Below are positions 25,524 through 33,488 of a DNA stretch of 64,000 nucleotides, one piece after another (positions within the stretch are counted from its first letter, which is position 1; each line of letters opens with the position of its first letter). The position numbers and the translations under genes are program-made. The stretch comes from Sphaerobacter thermophilus DSM 20745 (lineage in GTDB: Bacteria; Chloroflexota; Chloroflexia; Thermomicrobiales; Thermomicrobiaceae), in the NCBI RefSeq assembly GCF_000024985.1, contig NC_013523.1:1860001-1924000 (forward strand), written 5' to 3'. Under the pieces are notes generated by a model. The model did no database searches. It saw only the letters and a program-made list of their open reading frames with translations, and had not been told where the DNA came from.

Positions 25524-25964
25524 GTGCTGAACGCACAGCAGATCCAGGAGATCATCCCCCACCGGTTCCCGTTCCTGCTCGTCGATCGCATCATCGAGGT
25601 CGAGTGGGGCCGACGCGCGGTCGGGATCAAGAATGTCAGCATGGGGGAACCGTTCTTCCAGGGACACTTCCCCGGCTACCCGGTCATGCCCGGTGTGCTG
25701 ATCATCGAAGCCCTGGCGCAGGTGGGGGCCGTGGCGCTGCTCGGCAGCGAGGAGTTCCGCGGCAAGATGGCCCTCTTCGCCGGGATCGACAACGTGCGCT
25801 TCAAGCGGCAGGTCGTCCCGGGCGACACGCTGCGCCTTGAGGTTGAGATGGGCAAGATGCGCCGCGGGGTCGGCACCGGCACCGCCGTCGCCACGGTCGA
25901 CGGCGAACTCGCGGCCCGCGGCGAGTTGATGTTCGCGGTGGTCGATGCGCCCACGGGCACGTAG
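25524..25964 (+). CDS. fabZ: 3-hydroxyacyl-ACP dehydratase FabZ
   Basis: The hot-dog fold enzyme removes water from 3-hydroxyacyl-ACP in fatty acid elongation. [11 protein letters not shown] and [20 protein letters not shown] contain the catalytic His and Glu. The GTG start at 25524 is preceded by GAGGAG. At 146 residues it is of normal length. The next gene begins 20 bases before the fabZ stop, so lipid synthesis is translationally linked to the glycosyltransferase genes downstream. Confidence 0.95.
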
Positions 25965-27090
25965 TCACCGGCTGCGCGAGCACGCCGTCGGCGCCGGGGC
26001 ACGCCTGGCGGGGCGGTTGGCGCGTCCCCGGCACATCCCGGAACCACCCGAGCCCGGCACCGCGCCGCGCATCCTGGTGGTCAAACCCTGTTGCCTTGGT
26101 GACGTGCTGATGGCCACGCCTGCGCTCCGCGCGCTTGCCACACACTACCCGGGTGCGGAGATCGACGTCGTCACCACCGACTGGTCGGCGCCCGCGCTCG
26201 CGGGGAACCCACATGTAGCGCGCATCATCCCGTACCCGAATCGCCTCCCGATGGTGGGACTCCACTTCCTCGCCCGCACACTGCGCCGCACGGGCTACGA
26301 CCTGGGAATCGGGCTCGATCCCTCGCCGCTCGTCAACGTGCTCCTCTGGCGCTCGGGCATCCCGGTCCGCGCTGGGATCGACAGCGCCGGTCGCGGCATC
26401 GGCCTGACCCATCCGGTCACGCCCGACCCTGCTCTGCACGAGACGGAGGCGTACCTTGCCGTACTGGCGGCGATCGGTGTGCCGCCCGCAGGGACCGAGC
26501 CGGAGTACCACCCCTCCGCCGAAGCCCGGCGCTCCGCCGCGGTGATCATTCCGGATGACGCGCCTCCCACGGTCGTCATCCACCCCGGCGGCGCGGTGAA
26601 CCCGGGGACCGCCATGCCCGCCAAGCGCTGGCCGCCCGAGCGCTTCGCCGCTCTCGCGGACCGGCTCGCGGGGGAGGCCGGGGCGCGCGTGATCCTGGCC
26701 GGGGCCAGCTCCGACCGCGCGGTGGTCGCGGCGGTTGTCCGCCGGACCCAGGCACCCGTGGTGAACCTCTGCGGGCGGCTGACGCTTGACGAGTTGGCTG
26801 CGGTCGCCGAGCGGGCTGCGCTCTACGTCGGCAACGATAGCGGTACCAGCCACCTGGCAGCGGCGGTGGGTACCCCTACGGTGACGATCTTCGGACCCAC
26901 CAACCCCGGCCGCTACCGCCCGCTCGGTCCACACGCGCGAGTATGCGCACCGCCCGAGAGCTGGAAGGGTGCAGTGATCGATCTTCGCCACGAGCGCGGG
27001 GACGGCCCCTCGGTCGAATCGGTCACGGTCGACATGGTCGCCGCAGCCTGCCTTGAGGTGCTGGGCGCGGCGGGCAAGGGGGCCGCATGA
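25945..27090 (+). CDS. Glycosyltransferase family 9 (first copy)
   Basis: This 381-residue GT-B enzyme shows the GT9/heptosyltransferase pattern: [22 protein letters not shown] near the N-terminal third, [32 protein letters not shown], and [24 protein letters not shown] near the C-terminus, the donor-binding region. GT9 enzymes build lipopolysaccharide cores in Gram-negative bacteria, but no LPS genes occur here, so the acceptor is likely another glycolipid or surface polysaccharide. The ATG lies within fabZ; the N-terminal 35 residues are basic and poorly conserved, so a later start is possible. The stop overlaps the next GT9 start. Confidence 0.85.
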
Positions 27091-28226
27091 TCCTCCATCG
27101 CCTGCGCGATGCCGGCCTGGCGATCGCCTCGCGCGCGCCAGTGACGCCGGCCGTGCCGCGTTCCTATGAGATATTGCTGCTGCGGCCGGACCACCTGGGG
27201 GATCTGCTCTTCGTCACCCCGGCACTGCGCCGCCTACGGAAGGCGCTGCCGGAGGCCACCATCACTGCGGTCGTGGGCCCCTGGGCCGCACCGGTGCTGG
27301 CAGGCAACCCCGACATCGACAAGGTGCTCACGCTGCCGTTCCCCGGCTTCACGCGCCGCCCCTTAAGCCGCCTGCAGCCGTATCGGCTGCTCCAGCAGTG
27401 GGCCGCGCTGATCCGCGAGCGGGCGCCCGCGGCGGTCGTGGTTCTACGCGACGACCACTGGTGGGGTGCACTCCTGGCCCAGCGCGCCGGGGTTCCGCTG
27501 CGCATCGGGGCCGACCACCCGGCAGTGAGGCGCTATTTGACCCACGCCATCCCGCTGCGTGAGCCGCACTGGGTCCAGCGCAACGCCGCCCTGCTCGACG
27601 CGACCGCCCGCATCCTCGGTGGCACCCCACCGGACGAGCCGGTCACGCCGGCCACCGCGCCGCTACGCCTGCCATCGGTAGCGAGCGAGTCGGCTGCCAT
27701 TACGCTCGCCGGGGCGGGGATCGCCGGGTCGTATCTGGCCGTCATCCCCGGCGCCGGAGCACGCGTCAAGCACTGGCTCCCGGACCGCTGGGCGACCGTC
27801 GCCACGACACTTGCGCGCGAGCTTGGTTGTATGGTGGTCCTTACCGGGAGCATGAGCGAGGCGGCGATGATCGACCAGATCCGGGCACGTATCCAGGCGC
27901 CGGCCGCCTCCCTCGCCGGGCAGACCGACCTCCCGACGCTCACCGCCGTACTGCAGGGTGCACGCTTGGCGGTCGGGGTGGATTGCGGACCAATGCACCT
28001 CGCCGTCGCCGCCGGGACACCGACGGTCCACCTCTTTGGCCCGAGTTCCGCCGCACAGTTCGGCCCCTGGGGTAATCCGGCGCGCCACCGCGTGGTGAGC
28101 GCCGGATGGTGCTGCTCCCGCTGTGGCGACCTCTCGCCGGAGCGGCCCGAGGGCGCGGGGTGCATGGTGGCGATCACCGCGGACGCGGTCCTGGCAGCCG
28201 CGCGAGAGGTGCTGGCCGATGGCTGA
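27087..28226 (+). CDS. Glycosyltransferase family 9 (second copy)
   Basis: The 379-residue protein has YEILLLRPDHLGDLLFVTPALRRLR, YLAVIPGAGARVKHWLPDRW and VGVDCGPMHLAVAAGTPTVHLFGPSS, the same donor-binding elements as its neighbour. CCSRCGDLSPERPEGAGCM near the C-terminus supplies a Cys cluster, seen in many GT9 proteins. It overlaps both neighbours by a few bases (ATGA at the start), consistent with a single multi-enzyme operon building one glycan. Donor and acceptor are unknown. Confidence 0.87.
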   Translation: MILHRLRDAGLAIASRAPVTPAVPRSYEILLLRPDHLGDLLFVTPALRRLRKALPEATITAVVGPWAAPVLAGNPDIDKVLTLPFPGFTRRPLSRLQPYRLLQQWAALIRERAPAAVVVLRDDHWWGALLAQRAGVPLRIGADHPAVRRYLTHAIPLREPHWVQRNAALLDATARILGGTPPDEPVTPATAPLRLPSVASESAAITLAGAGIAGSYLAVIPGAGARVKHWLPDRWATVATTLARELGCMVVLTGSMSEAAMIDQIRARIQAPAASLAGQTDLPTLTAVLQGARLAVGVDCGPMHLAVAAGTPTVHLFGPSSAAQFGPWGNPARHRVVSAGWCCSRCGDLSPERPEGAGCMVAITADAVLAAAREVLADG

Positions 28227-29358
28227 GTCGCGGCCGTTGACGATCGGGATCGACGCCAGCCGCGTCAGCGAGCGCCAAACCGGCACCGAGCGGTACTCGC
28301 GCCACATCATCGAGGCGCTGACGGCCGCCGGGCCGCACCACCGCTACCGGCTGTACCGCAACGCGACCGAGCCGATTCCGCTGCGCGTTCCCGCCGGGAC
28401 CGAGCAGCGCCTGATTCCCTTCCCGCGTCTCTGGACACACCTGCGGCTCTCAGCCGAGTTGGCGCGGCACCGGGTGGACGCGCTCTTCGTCCCGGCGCAC
28501 GTCATCCCGCCGGTACACCCGCGCGCCAGCGTGGTCACCATCCATGACCTCGGCTACCTGTACGAAGCCGATGCACACACGCCCTCGGCGCGACGCTACC
28601 TGGACTGGTCCACCCGCTGGAGCGCCCGCGTCGCCGCCCGTGTCATCGCGATCTCTCGCGCCACGCGCGACGACCTCATCCGGCACTACCACGTGCCGGC
28701 GGAGAAGATTGGCGTCATCCCGCACGGCATCGACGAGACGTTTACACCGCGCCCGCCGGACGAAGTCGACCGCTGGCTTGCCAATCTGGGACTGCGCCGC
28801 CCCTATCTGCTCTATGTCGGCACGCTGCAACCGCGGAAGAATCTTGCCCGGCTCATCGCGGCTTTCGACCGGCTGGCGGCCGAACACCCGGATCTGCGTC
28901 TGGTGCTGGCGGGGAAGCGTGGGTGGCTGGCGGAGGAGATCGACGCCGCGCTCGCCCGCAGCCCGAACCGCAGCCGCATCGACCTGCCCGGCCACGTGCC
29001 CGACGCCGCGCTCCCGGCGCTCTACACGGGCTGCGAGGCCCTGGCGCTCCCGTCGCTCTACGAGGGCTTCGGCCTGCCGGTCCTCGAGGCCATGGCCTGC
29101 GGCGCACCGGTGGTGATTTCGAACCGCGGGGCGCTGCCGGAGGTCGGCGGCGACGCGGCGATCGTCGTCGACCCGCTCGACACGGACGCCATCGCCGCCG
29201 GGCTGGCTCGCGCGCTCGACCCTGCCGAGCGGGAGCGCCGGGTCGCGGCGGGACGCGCCCACGCCGCACGCTTCCGCTGGGACGATGCCGGTCGCGCCAC
29301 GCTGGCAGTGATCGAGGAGGCCGTCGCCGTCACCGGGGGGAGCCATGGCCGTCGCTGA
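28219..29358 (+). CDS. Glycosyltransferase family 4
   Basis: This 379-residue GT-B enzyme opens with TIGIDASRVSERQTGTERYSRHI and VVTIHDLGYL. The retaining-GT4 C-terminal half has LLYVGTLQPRKNLARLIAAF, HVPDAALPALYTGCEALALPS and the EX7E-like YEGFGLPVLEAMACGAPVV. It is the mannosyltransferase-like GT4 type. ATG 28219 sits eight bases inside the upstream stop. With inositol-phosphate synthase close by, a mannosyl-inositol lipid role is conceivable, but that is an inference from context only. Confidence 0.88.
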   Translation: MAESRPLTIGIDASRVSERQTGTERYSRHIIEALTAAGPHHRYRLYRNATEPIPLRVPAGTEQRLIPFPRLWTHLRLSAELARHRVDALFVPAHVIPPVHPRASVVTIHDLGYLYEADAHTPSARRYLDWSTRWSARVAARVIAISRATRDDLIRHYHVPAEKIGVIPHGIDETFTPRPPDEVDRWLANLGLRRPYLLYVGTLQPRKNLARLIAAFDRLAAEHPDLRLVLAGKRGWLAEEIDAALARSPNRSRIDLPGHVPDAALPALYTGCEALALPSLYEGFGLPVLEAMACGAPVVISNRGALPEVGGDAAIVVDPLDTDAIAAGLARALDPAERERRVAAGRAHAARFRWDDAGRATLAVIEEAVAVTGGSHGRR

Positions 29359-30508
29359 CGTGGTTGCACCGCGCCGCATCCTGGTCGTCAAACTCGCCGA
29401 CCTGGGCGACGCCGTGCTGGCGACGCCGGCCATCGACGCGCTGCGCCGCGCCTTCCCCACGGCCCGCATCGACGCGCTGACCACGCCTGCTGCCCGGGCG
29501 GTGCTCGCCCTGTGCCCCGCGGTCGACCGTACCATCGGTTTCCCCAAGGCGCTCTTCGATCGGCCCACCGACCTGGCACACCCCGGGCGGCTCGTCACAA
29601 TGGCACGGCTGGCCGCACACCTGCGCGCGCAGCGCTACGACGCAGTCGTGTTGCTCCACCACCTGACAACCGGCTTCGGTGCGCTGAAGTTCCGCGCCCT
29701 GGCGCGGGCGACCGGCGCTCCGGTCGTCGCCGGGCTGGACAACGGGCGAGGGACGTTCCTCACCCACCGGGCGACCGACCTGGGATTCGGCGGACGGACA
29801 GAGTGGGAGTACGGCCTGGACATCGTCGCCGCGCTCGGGGTGCCCACCGACGGCGCCCGCGCGAACCTCGCGGTCCCGGATAGCGCCCGGGCGGCGGCCG
29901 ACCGCCTCCTCGGGCAAGCTGGCATCGCGGAGCCGTTCATCGTCGTCCACCCGGGCGTCGGGTCGTATAGCCAGGCCCGTGCCTGGCCGGCCGACCGCTT
30001 CGCTGCCGTCGCGCGCGATCTCCGCGCTAGCACCGGTTTGCCGATCGTAGCGGTCGGCACACGGGACGAGGCGGCCGGCGCCGGACCACTGTTGGCGGAA
30101 GACGGGGTTGTCAACCTGCTCGGGCGGACCACGATCGCGGAGCTGGCGGCGGTGCTGGCACGCGCTGCCCTGGTCATCGGTGCGGACAGTGGCGTGGCGC
30201 ATCTCACGGCCGCGCTCCGGCGCCCGACACTGGCCATCTTCGGCCCATCGAACCACGACGCCTGGCGCCCCATGGGTGCGGCCCTCCACTACGTGGGAAC
30301 TCGTCCCTTCCCCGATGCCGGGGCACTGGTTGTGCGAGCGCCCATCCCGTGTGCGCCGTGCCTCTACACGGGCTACACTCTCGGGCAGCGGCAGGGGTGC
30401 ACGCTACGGACCTGCCTCGACTGGGTTGCCGCAACCGAGGTCGTCGAGGCGGCGCTGCACATGCTCCGCAACTCGGGCGTAATTGACGCACCCGAGAAGC
30501 TACCGTAG
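29345..30508 (+). CDS. Glycosyltransferase family 9 (third copy)
   Basis: This 387-residue protein has [46 protein letters not shown] and [24 protein letters not shown]. Near the C-terminus [22 protein letters not shown] gives four cysteines, typical of GT9 enzymes that may bind a metal. It overlaps the preceding GT4 stop by 14 bases. It is the last of four consecutive, overlapping glycosyltransferases. Confidence 0.87.
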
Positions 30509-30614
30509 AATCGCGATCATGCGCGCTGACTGTCGGCCGCGCGCGCAGGGAGTCGCCTGCATCGGAAGCGCTGGGCGGCGGGCGCGGCGGCAAGGAGTGG
30601 AGGACCCGGCACAA

Positions 30615-31742
30615 GTGAGTAGCAGAAAGATCCGTGTCGCGATCATCGGCGTGGGGAACTGCGCGTCATCCCTGGTTCAGGGGGTCGAGTACTACCGCCA
30701 CGCTGACCCGAACGACTTTGTGCCCGGCCTGATGCACGTTGATCTCGGCGGCTACCACGTCGGGGACATCGAGTTCAGCGCCGCGATCGACATCGACAAG
30801 AACAAGGTGGGCAAGGACCTCTCCGAGGCAATCTTCACGTCGCCCAACAACACCTATAAGTTCTCCGATGTGCCGCACCTGGGCGTCCCCGTCCACCGCG
30901 GCATGACGCACGACGGCCTCGGCAAGTACCTCTCACAGATCATTGAGAAGGCGCCAGGCTCCACTGCCGACATCGTCGGCATCCTCAAGGAGACCGGCAC
31001 CGACGTCGTCGTCAACTTCCTGCCCGTCGGCTCCGAGATGGCCACCAAGTGGTACGTCGAGCAGGTACTGGAGGCCGGCTGCGCCTTCGTCAACTGCATC
31101 CCGGTCTTCATCGCCCGCGAGGAGTACTGGCAGAACCGCTTCCGCGAGCGGGGTCTGCCGATCATCGGCGACGACATCAAGAGCCAGGTCGGCGCGACCA
31201 TCACCCACCGCGTGCTGACCCGCCTCTTCGCCGACCGCGGTGTCCGCATCGACCGCACCTACCAGCTCAACTTCGGCGGCAACACCGACTTCCTCAACAT
31301 GCTGGAGCGCGAGCGGCTGGAGTCAAAGAAGATCTCCAAGACGAACGCCGTCACCAGCCAGATCGACTACCCGGTGGATCCGGAGAACGTGCACGTCGGC
31401 CCGAGCGACTATGTGCCGTGGCTCCAGGACCGCAAGTGGTGCCACATCCGCATGGAGGGAACGACCTTTGGCGATGTGCCGCTCAACATCGAGCTAAAGC
31501 TCGAGGTGTGGGACTCGCCGAACTCGGCCGGCGTCGTGATCGACGCCATCCGCTGCGCGAAGCTCGCGCTCGATACCGGCATCAGCGGCGCGCTGCTCGG
31601 ACCGTCGGCCTACTTCATGAAGTCGCCGCCCGTCCAGTACCACGACGACCAGGCCCGCGAGATGGTTGAGAGCTTCATCCGCGAGACCGTCGCGCATCGC
31701 GAGGCTGCCGAGGCTGCCGCTACCCCGGCCGAGCAGGGGTGA
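30615..31742 (+). CDS. ino1: Inositol-3-phosphate synthase (actinobacterial-type)
   Basis: The enzyme converts glucose 6-phosphate to 1L-myo-inositol 1-phosphate with [22 protein letters not shown] is the Rossmann loop, followed by the substrate-site runs [36 protein letters not shown] and [17 protein letters not shown], and [17 protein letters not shown] 30615, behind GGAGTGGAGG, gives 375 residues; an upstream in-frame extension has no family character. Thermomicrobia contain phosphoinositol lipids, so this is a plausible first committed step. A hairpin terminator follows. It lies directly after the glycosyltransferases. Confidence 0.92.
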
Positions 31743-31816: not shown

Positions 31817-31846
31817 GCAGCCGGCCGGATTGCCCCGGCCGGCTGC
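31817..31846 (+). terminator. Hairpin terminator after the inositol-phosphate synthase gene
   Basis: A perfect 12-bp stem GCAGCCGGCCGG with its complement and loop ATTGCC lies 74 bp after the stop. The T-poor tail (ACTGTTCC) makes it a weaker intrinsic terminator. Confidence 0.6.
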
Positions 31847-31883
31847 ACTGTTCCTCCGAAATCGGACAAAGCGGAGGCCGCCC

Positions 31884-32513
31884 GTGGACCTCGCGCCTCG
31901 TCGCCTCAACCTCTCGTACGTGCTGCATGAACCATCGACCAGTGCCATGGTTCGCGACGTCGCCGAGCGCGGCGTAGCCGAAGCGCGGCGCCTGCACCGG
32001 GCAACTGCTACCCTCGCGGCCCTCCCCAACCCCGTCCTCCGCGAGCGCGTCGTCGTGCTGTCCACCTCCCCACTGGACGCGTTCGCCAAACGGGCCACGC
32101 CTTCCGCGATCGCGTCCATCCACCTCGGTCCCTGGTGGCTCCTGCCGCGCATCCTCGGCCTGAGTGCATCGGACGGCACTCCCCAGCCGGTGCACTTCAT
32201 CGACCAGCCCGCCGCGGCGGCCACCCGGATGGTGCCGTTTTTCCGCGCCCCGGCGCGACTCGCCCTGCCGGAGGCGTCGGCCCCGGACTACCCGGCCTGG
32301 TTCGCCGCGCTCGTGCTGCGGCCGGGCGGCGACACGCTCCTGCTCCGACTGGATGCGATCCCCGGGCCCGAGGTATCCCCTGGTGAGCGCGACGCGGCAC
32401 TCCTCGGCGCCGCCGAGCGCGCCATCCGCGCCCATGTGGAACAATGGTCGTGCCCTGGTCCACTGTGGGATGCGCCCGCGGAGTTGAGCCTGCCTGAGTT
32501 TGCACCGGGCTAG
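31884..32513 (+). CDS. LpxL-like protein, probable degenerate acyltransferase
   Basis: GTG 31884, six bases after GGAGG, gives 209 residues. The sequence is not clearly recognisable on its own, but its layout parallels the next gene. SIHLGPWWLLP aligns with the HX4D/E region of LpxL/PatA acyltransferases, and AHVEQWSCPGPLWD with the C-terminal QWAVLQPVWD of its neighbour. The usual acid after the His is a Trp, and the central GDRD...PLFGEPARLP region is absent. It is therefore probably an inactive or divergent relative. It ends 21 bp before the full-length neighbour, suggesting the two act together. Confidence 0.6.
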   Translation: MDLAPRRLNLSYVLHEPSTSAMVRDVAERGVAEARRLHRATATLAALPNPVLRERVVVLSTSPLDAFAKRATPSAIASIHLGPWWLLPRILGLSASDGTPQPVHFIDQPAAAATRMVPFFRAPARLALPEASAPDYPAWFAALVLRPGGDTLLLRLDAIPGPEVSPGERDAALLGAAERAIRAHVEQWSCPGPLWDAPAELSLPEFAPG

Positions 32514-32534
32514 TCGGGGTGAGTGGAGGTCGCG

Positions 32535-33488
32535 ATGTGGACCCTGCGCGTGCTCCAGGTCGTCGCCTTCCTGACGCCGTATGTCCCGGCCGCGATCGGC
32601 TACACGATCTGCTGGTTCATCGGGGTCATTCTCGGTGGGCTCAACGTCCGCGCCCGCCGGAACGTGCTGTGTAACCTGCGCCGGGTTCTCCCCACAGCCG
32701 GCCCGATCCGGCTCCGGTGGCAGGCGCTGCGCGTCTTCGTCAGTGTCGTCACCAACTATTACGACCTGATCCGCCTCGGCCACATGGATCGCGACCGCGT
32801 GCTGGCGATGTTCGAGACCGAGGGCATCGAACACCTGACGGCCGCGCTGACGCGTGGCCGCGGAGTCATCATTCTGGCTGCCCATGTCGGTAACTACAAC
32901 GTCGTCCCCAGTCTGCCGGTGGCCCGCGGCTACCCGACCGCGGTCGTGGCCGAGCGGGTGCATCCGGAGGAGCTCTACACCTATGTCAACGAGCTGCGGG
33001 CCAGCCTCGGGGTTCAGGTGATTCCGCCCGGCTCCGAATCCCTGCGGCCGATCATCCGCCTGCTGCGTCGCAACGGCATCCTCATCCTCGCCGGGGACCG
33101 CGACGTGGTCGGGAGCGGCATGCCGGTGCCGCTCTTCGGCGAACCGGCCCGCCTGCCGACGGGCCCGGTGCTCCTCGCCATGCGCACCGGCGCGGCGCTC
33201 ATCCCGGCCGGCACGGTACGCAAGGGCAGCCGGCGGTCGCTTGCCTTCGTCGAGCCGGCGATCGAGATGGTCGACACCGGCGACTGGGATGTCGACCTGC
33301 GAGTGAACATGATCCGGATGGCCGAGGCACTGGAGCGGATGATCAGACGCGATCCGGGCCAGTGGGCCGTGCTCCAGCCTGTCTGGGACACCACCACGCC
33401 CGCGGACGAGGGCGCGCCACGAGCGCCACGCCGCAGGACCCGCGGGCGTCAGGAACCGGCCGAGCCTTCAGCGTCCACCACGCGATAG
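32535..33488 (+). CDS. LpxL/PatA-type acyltransferase
   Basis: This 317-residue protein belongs to the lysophospholipid/lipid A acyltransferase superfamily. It has an N-terminal membrane helix, the block LAAHVGNYNVVP, GDRDVVGSGMPVPLFGEPARLPTGP, and QWAVLQPVWD at the end. PatA of mycobacteria, of this family, acylates phosphatidylinositol mannosides, and the inositol-phosphate synthase nearby makes that comparison attractive. The catalytic HX4D/E reads H-V-G-N-Y-N, with Asn for the usual acid. ATG 32535 follows GGAGG by five bases; an upstream GTG at 32523 is weaker. The 3' end overlaps the convergent XPB gene by 40 bases. Confidence 0.83.
   Translation: MWTLRVLQVVAFLTPYVPAAIGYTICWFIGVILGGLNVRARRNVLCNLRRVLPTAGPIRLRWQALRVFVSVVTNYYDLIRLGHMDRDRVLAMFETEGIEHLTAALTRGRGVIILAAHVGNYNVVPSLPVARGYPTAVVAERVHPEELYTYVNELRASLGVQVIPPGSESLRPIIRLLRRNGILILAGDRDVVGSGMPVPLFGEPARLPTGPVLLAMRTGAALIPAGTVRKGSRRSLAFVEPAIEMVDTGDWDVDLRVNMIRMAEALERMIRRDPGQWAVLQPVWDTTTPADEGAPRAPRRRTRGRQEPAEPSASTTR

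Follow-up and report, generated by a model that had tools for sequence, protein, structure and literature searches.

The closest solved relative of the long protein considered here is PatA of mycobacteria. Its general base, His126, forms a pair with the block-3 residue Glu200, while Asp131, the aspartate of the HX4D motif, is structural and non-essential (PMC4792965). The H126A and E200A mutants are inactive and D131A keeps 37% activity, and HtrB, MsbB and PatA all seem to rely on a Glu/Asp in block 3 (PMC4792965). For LpxM, however, the title of PDB 5knk (E127A) presents the HX4E glutamate as catalytic, so that the block-3 rule may fail in parts of the family.

The analysed window is a stretch of 64,000 nucleotides from Sphaerobacter thermophilus, the genome of which comprises two replicons (3,993,764 bases in total); its closest named relative is a Sphaerobacter MAG, in which the corresponding protein is 90% identical. 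On the forward strand, a block of three GT9 genes and one GT4 glycosyltransferase gene (25945-30508), kept in families f1 and f3, is followed by the gene for myo-inositol-phosphate synthase (MIPS/INO1; 30483-31742), a short gene (31884-32513) and a long gene (32523-33488). The open reading frames of the pair reported by the initial annotation were both recovered, as were the motifs HVGNYN (His121, Asn126) in the long gene and HLGPWW (His80) in the short one, and the neighbouring MIPS and four glycosyltransferase genes lie upstream. MIPS matches PF01658 with 131 bits and the NCBIfam inositol-3-phosphate synthase model with 546 bits, short of its cut-off of 638; it is present as a single copy in the genome and its real start is probably near 30591. 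The short gene encodes 209 amino acids from a GTG start with GGAGG at 31873-31877. The long gene encodes 321 amino acids counted from GTG; its translation more probably begins at the ATG of 32535, which is preceded by GGAGG (32525-32529). A hairpin of 13 pairs between MIPS and the short gene (31817-31846) is terminator-like on the minus strand only, and the last 40 or so bases of the long gene (33449-33488) are shared with a convergent gene for an XPB-type helicase.

Family and catalytic residues of the long protein

The long gene passes PF03279 (Lip_A_acyltrans) with 132.9 bits against a curated cut-off of 22.3. The best solved relative of its product is PatA (5f2t, 2e-27 in phmmer), followed by LpxM (2e-7), and its AlphaFold model (pLDDT 91.2) matches PatA with a Z-score of 29.4 (rmsd 2.2, 244 residues) and LpxM with one of 28.4. 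The best of 17 NCBIfam models was that of the PIM acyltransferase (NF005919; 166.6 bits, under the equivalog cut-off of 209). The long gene is PatA2, a PatA-type acyltransferase gene and the second member of a PatA1-PatA2 tandem.

Both catalytic elements of PatA are present in the long protein. His121 (codon 32883-32885) is equivalent to the catalytic base His126, and Asp192 (33096-33098) aligns with the block-3 acid Glu200; together with Arg159, these residues are invariant in a 52-row homologue alignment, and the class survey found the His and the block-3 Asp in 108/108 full-length proteins. The HX4D aspartate is not kept, its position (PatA Asp131) being taken by Asn126 (32898-32900). The claim of the initial annotation that neither protein of the pair retains the usual acid does not hold, since the acid pairing with the catalytic His of PatA is that of block 3, to which Asp192 of the long protein and, by alignment, Asp107 of the short one correspond. 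By homology, the acid of the long protein is thus supplied by a residue outside the HX4 motif, an outcome which the initial annotation had itself envisaged. The suggested new catalytic type loses its footing, as loss of the catalytic acid is unsupported when Asp192 is invariant in 52 homologues. Close homologues do not keep Asp/Glu at the HX4 position but carry Asn, Ser or Thr, so the substitution is lineage-wide and not an isolated event.

All 39 proteins of one clade in the class, drawn from eight families, carry Asn, Ser or Thr at this position (SH support 0.97); the paralogous clade A of the same class has Asp. By manual count outside the class, all first tandem members have D or E there, while second members have D/E in 20/33 cases and A/S/N/V/G in 13/33. 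On the phylum tree, the position switched between acid and non-acid at least four times; this was a rapidly built LG+G4 tree whose branches are long, and its clade contents, not its deep order, were used. The long protein appears to be an enzyme of a known kind whose HX4 position is relaxed and not essential. Loss of the HX4 acid alone does not mean an inactive enzyme in this family, which corrects an easy misreading, and the variation across Chloroflexota offers natural tests of which residue the enzyme can do without.

Among the acceptor-site residues of PatA, Glu149 and Arg164 are kept as Glu144 and Arg159, while Tyr83, Tyr163 and His284 are not conserved, the last being replaced by Ala; given these changes, acceptor details may differ from PatA. 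Glu144 was also considered as a compensating acid. Within the class, N/S/T at HX4 is combined with the Glu149-equivalent Glu in 39 proteins and D with Glu in only 2, a pattern that resembled compensation but stems from clade A having lost Glu149. As D at HX4 and E at the Glu149 position occur together in 33 proteins outside the class and in PatA itself, compensation by Glu144 was rejected.

The short gene as a degenerate PatA1 relative

The short gene has no Pfam match at E 1, PF03279 included. An HMM built from full-length proteins only nevertheless recovers it, at 8e-13 when searched by itself and at about 1e-8 in a set of 7,509 ORFs, and its AlphaFold model (pLDDT 92.8) matches PatA with a Z-score of 16.0 over 193 residues. 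PatA and LpxM are its only strong fold matches, the next best being PlsC (Z 5.5). A search of PDB sequences with the short-family profile did not find PatA, so that the kinship is shown by the fold and the custom HMM only. In hhalign, the profile scores 102 against PatA1, 66 against PatA2 and 68 against clade A, and the gene occupies the slot of PatA1 in other loci. The HMM, the structural model, the profile and dN/dS describe 31884-32513 as the gene of a degenerate protein of PatA fold that takes the place of PatA1. A chance ORF was ruled out by synteny in f1 and f3, dN/dS, the Shine-Dalgarno site and the confident PatA-fold model.

As the initial annotation had noted, the central part is missing: the spacing from the His to the block-3 acid is 27 residues in the short protein (His80-Asp107) and 71 in the long one (His121-Asp192), a cut that removes the acceptor-binding block (block 2). 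The position of His80 (codon 32121-32123) holds His in 5/21 orthologues, namely Sphaerobacter and two relatives, while that of Asp107 (32202-32204), which alignment and strand order equate with the block-3 acid, holds D or E in 21/21. With the His so rarely kept and block 2 deleted, catalytic residues are not conserved among the orthologues, as expected of a pseudoenzyme, and the earlier pseudoenzyme reading fits the predicted protein. The dN/dS of the gene between Sphaerobacter species (0.29-0.33, compared with 0.16-0.29 for PatA2) shows that it is held by selection, probably not for acyl transfer. On these sequence data, the short protein is probably a shrunken, inactive relative of PatA1.

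A phylum-wide inositol-lipid operon and the proposed function

Tandems of PF03279 genes were found across Chloroflexota. In 20 loci from other classes, picked for the tandem and not for its neighbours, PimA-like and PIPS-like genes adjoin it in every case (20/20) and MIPS in 16/20; the commonest order in the fetched loci is MIPS-PatA1-PatA2-(PHP)-PimA-PIPS. The genome of the window has MIPS and PatA2 at the present locus and a PIPS-like and PimA-like pair apart from it, at C1 ~317-319 kb, with PIP synthases (2e-22) and PimA (1e-69) as best solved matches. The PIM pathway genes MIPS, PIP synthase-like and PimA-like are thus all present in this genome. Together with the phylum-wide operon, they make an inositol-mannoside-type lipid the likeliest acceptor, as judged from context. 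The earlier suggestion of a PatA-type inositol-lipid acyltransferase fits the closest structure and this operon, while the closest NCBIfam model agrees with it below its cut-off. The pair traces back to an ancient PatA1-PatA2 tandem.

The main interest lies in the operon and the probable pseudoenzyme. No description of the operon in Chloroflexota was found in the open-licence papers searched. The operon points to a lipid pathway of PIM type beyond the Actinobacteria, in Chloroflexota, whose membranes are unusual. We tentatively suggest, as an idea that we hold to be rather doubtful in its entirety, that MIPS-PatA1-PatA2-(PHP)-PimA-PIPS was the ancestral Chloroflexota operon, that its tandem acyltransferases add successive chains, that the PHP phosphoesterase it often includes is the PIP phosphatase, and that PatA1 of Thermomicrobiaceae and a sister family became a PatA-fold pseudoenzyme with a lipid-binding or regulatory role independent of PatA2.

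A gene for a PHP-domain phosphoesterase lies between PatA2 and PimA at L176:3899-4666 (minus strand), and many of the other Chloroflexota loci examined have such a gene in this slot; it has no clear orthologue in the genome of the window. The PIP phosphatase has been termed unidentified (PMC6506517, PMC4634129), and the operon PHP gene is a candidate for it. Proteins of about 600 amino acids that fuse a divergent PF03279 domain with a C-terminal PHP domain (L099:8201-9979, L100:12148-13992, L057:700-2493 and L060:655-2433) link the two functions. A second PF03279 gene, of clade A and with intact HX4D, lies at C1 ~1.587-1.590 Mb (L101:9153-11611) in an operon with HAD phosphatase and PgsA-like genes; the pairing of clade A with PgsA-like genes recurs across the order. 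In genome G099, a clade A-like gene split into three ORFs (L124:3893-4853) precedes an intact copy and is likely a pseudogene.

For the pair itself, the evidence consists of homology, fold prediction, residue conservation, gene order and the presence of pathway genes. From this evidence we consider it probable that PatA2 acylates an inositol-mannoside lipid by means of His121 and Asp192, and that the short gene encodes a PatA1-derived, non-acylating protein of PatA fold. PatA2 would be a membrane-associated acyltransferase of the PatA/LpxL family, with His121 as the putative general base, Asp192 of block 3 as its partner and Asn126 at what would be the structural position that is non-essential in PatA. 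It would move an acyl chain onto the mannose of an inositol-phosphate mannoside lipid made by MIPS, the PIP-synthase-like enzyme and the PimA-like mannosyltransferase, the acceptor backbone in Thermomicrobia probably being a 1,2-diol or diacylglycerol. Diol-phosphoinositol-acylmannoside lipids are known from the Thermomicrobia. The short gene would have arisen from PatA1, with the acceptor-binding block and, in most cases, the catalytic His lost in this taxonomic order; its product would not transfer acyl chains and may bind lipid or membrane, or regulate MIPS or PatA2.

That the long protein is instead dead, or of a new catalytic type, is highly improbable: the Asn at HX4 and the naming of LpxM E127A as a catalytic substitution speak for it, and they are outweighed by the invariant His and block-3 Asp, the activity left in PatA D131A (PMC4792965) and the purifying selection on PatA2 between Sphaerobacter species (dN/dS 0.16-0.29). 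The choice of acceptor is open to a more serious objection, the chief competitor of this assignment: the proposed reaction could be shared with, or carried out instead by, the HX4D paralogue at C1 1.587 Mb. The paralogue would then acylate the mannoside and the long protein another acceptor, such as a glycolipid made by GT9/GT4 or a long-chain 1,2-diol at its 2-OH. The GT9/GT4 block is conserved beside MIPS, the short gene and PatA2 in f1, Thermomicrobium roseum has long-chain diol membranes and no plsB, and the PIM-acyltransferase model is the best match of the paralogue as well (149 bits). Its neighbours, however, are PgsA-like and HAD genes and not PimA or MIPS, whereas PatA2 orthologues across the phylum adjoin MIPS, PimA-like and PIPS-like genes, which leaves this alternative unlikely.

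The two proteins might also be a catalytic subunit with a pseudoenzyme partner, as the initial annotation had proposed, and work as an obligate heterodimer. Pseudoenzyme partners are common among enzyme families, the two genes are adjacent and co-oriented in f1, and both are under purifying selection in Sphaerobacter. Against this, each of the five f3 genomes has a single PF03279 match, which falls in clade A, and yet keeps the short gene, while in families f7 and f8 MIPS-PatA2 occurs without an adjoining short or PatA1 gene. Within f3, the short gene lies directly beside MIPS in G102 and G103, is represented by partial ORFs only in G100 and G101, has no adjoining MIPS in G100 and meets contig edges in G101 and G104; most of the compared genomes are drafts, in which absence is less certain than presence. 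As f3 keeps the short gene without PatA2 and f7 and f8 show the reverse, an obligate complex is quite unlikely; the pseudoenzyme half of the earlier proposal fits the short gene, and a complex of the obligate kind is weakened. The short protein perhaps has a looser role, with MIPS or the membrane.

Comparison with LpxJ, LpxL/LpxM and PatA

LpxJ (DUF374), like the long protein, has no HX4D/E motif and a block-3 Asp has been proposed for it (PMC6148475); it is nonetheless a separate family, for which the searches of this analysis found no match. With LpxL/LpxM (PDB 5KN7), the long protein shares its fold (Z 28.4) and Pfam family, but it is only 17% identical and falls far below the cut-offs of the NCBIfam lipid A models. 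PatA of Mycobacterium smegmatis (PDB 5F2T/5F2Z/5F34) is 30% identical to the long protein, which keeps its His, the equivalents of Arg164 and Glu149, and an acid in block 3. The two differ in that the long protein has Asn instead of Asp at HX4 and Asp instead of Glu in block 3, lacks Tyr83, Tyr163 and His284, and is encoded in tandem with a second homologue. Unlike for PatA, the PimA-like and PIPS-like genes of the window's genome are at a separate locus; in other Chloroflexota classes, relatives of the long gene lie in operons with PimA-like and PIPS-like genes, a context which resembles that of PatA.
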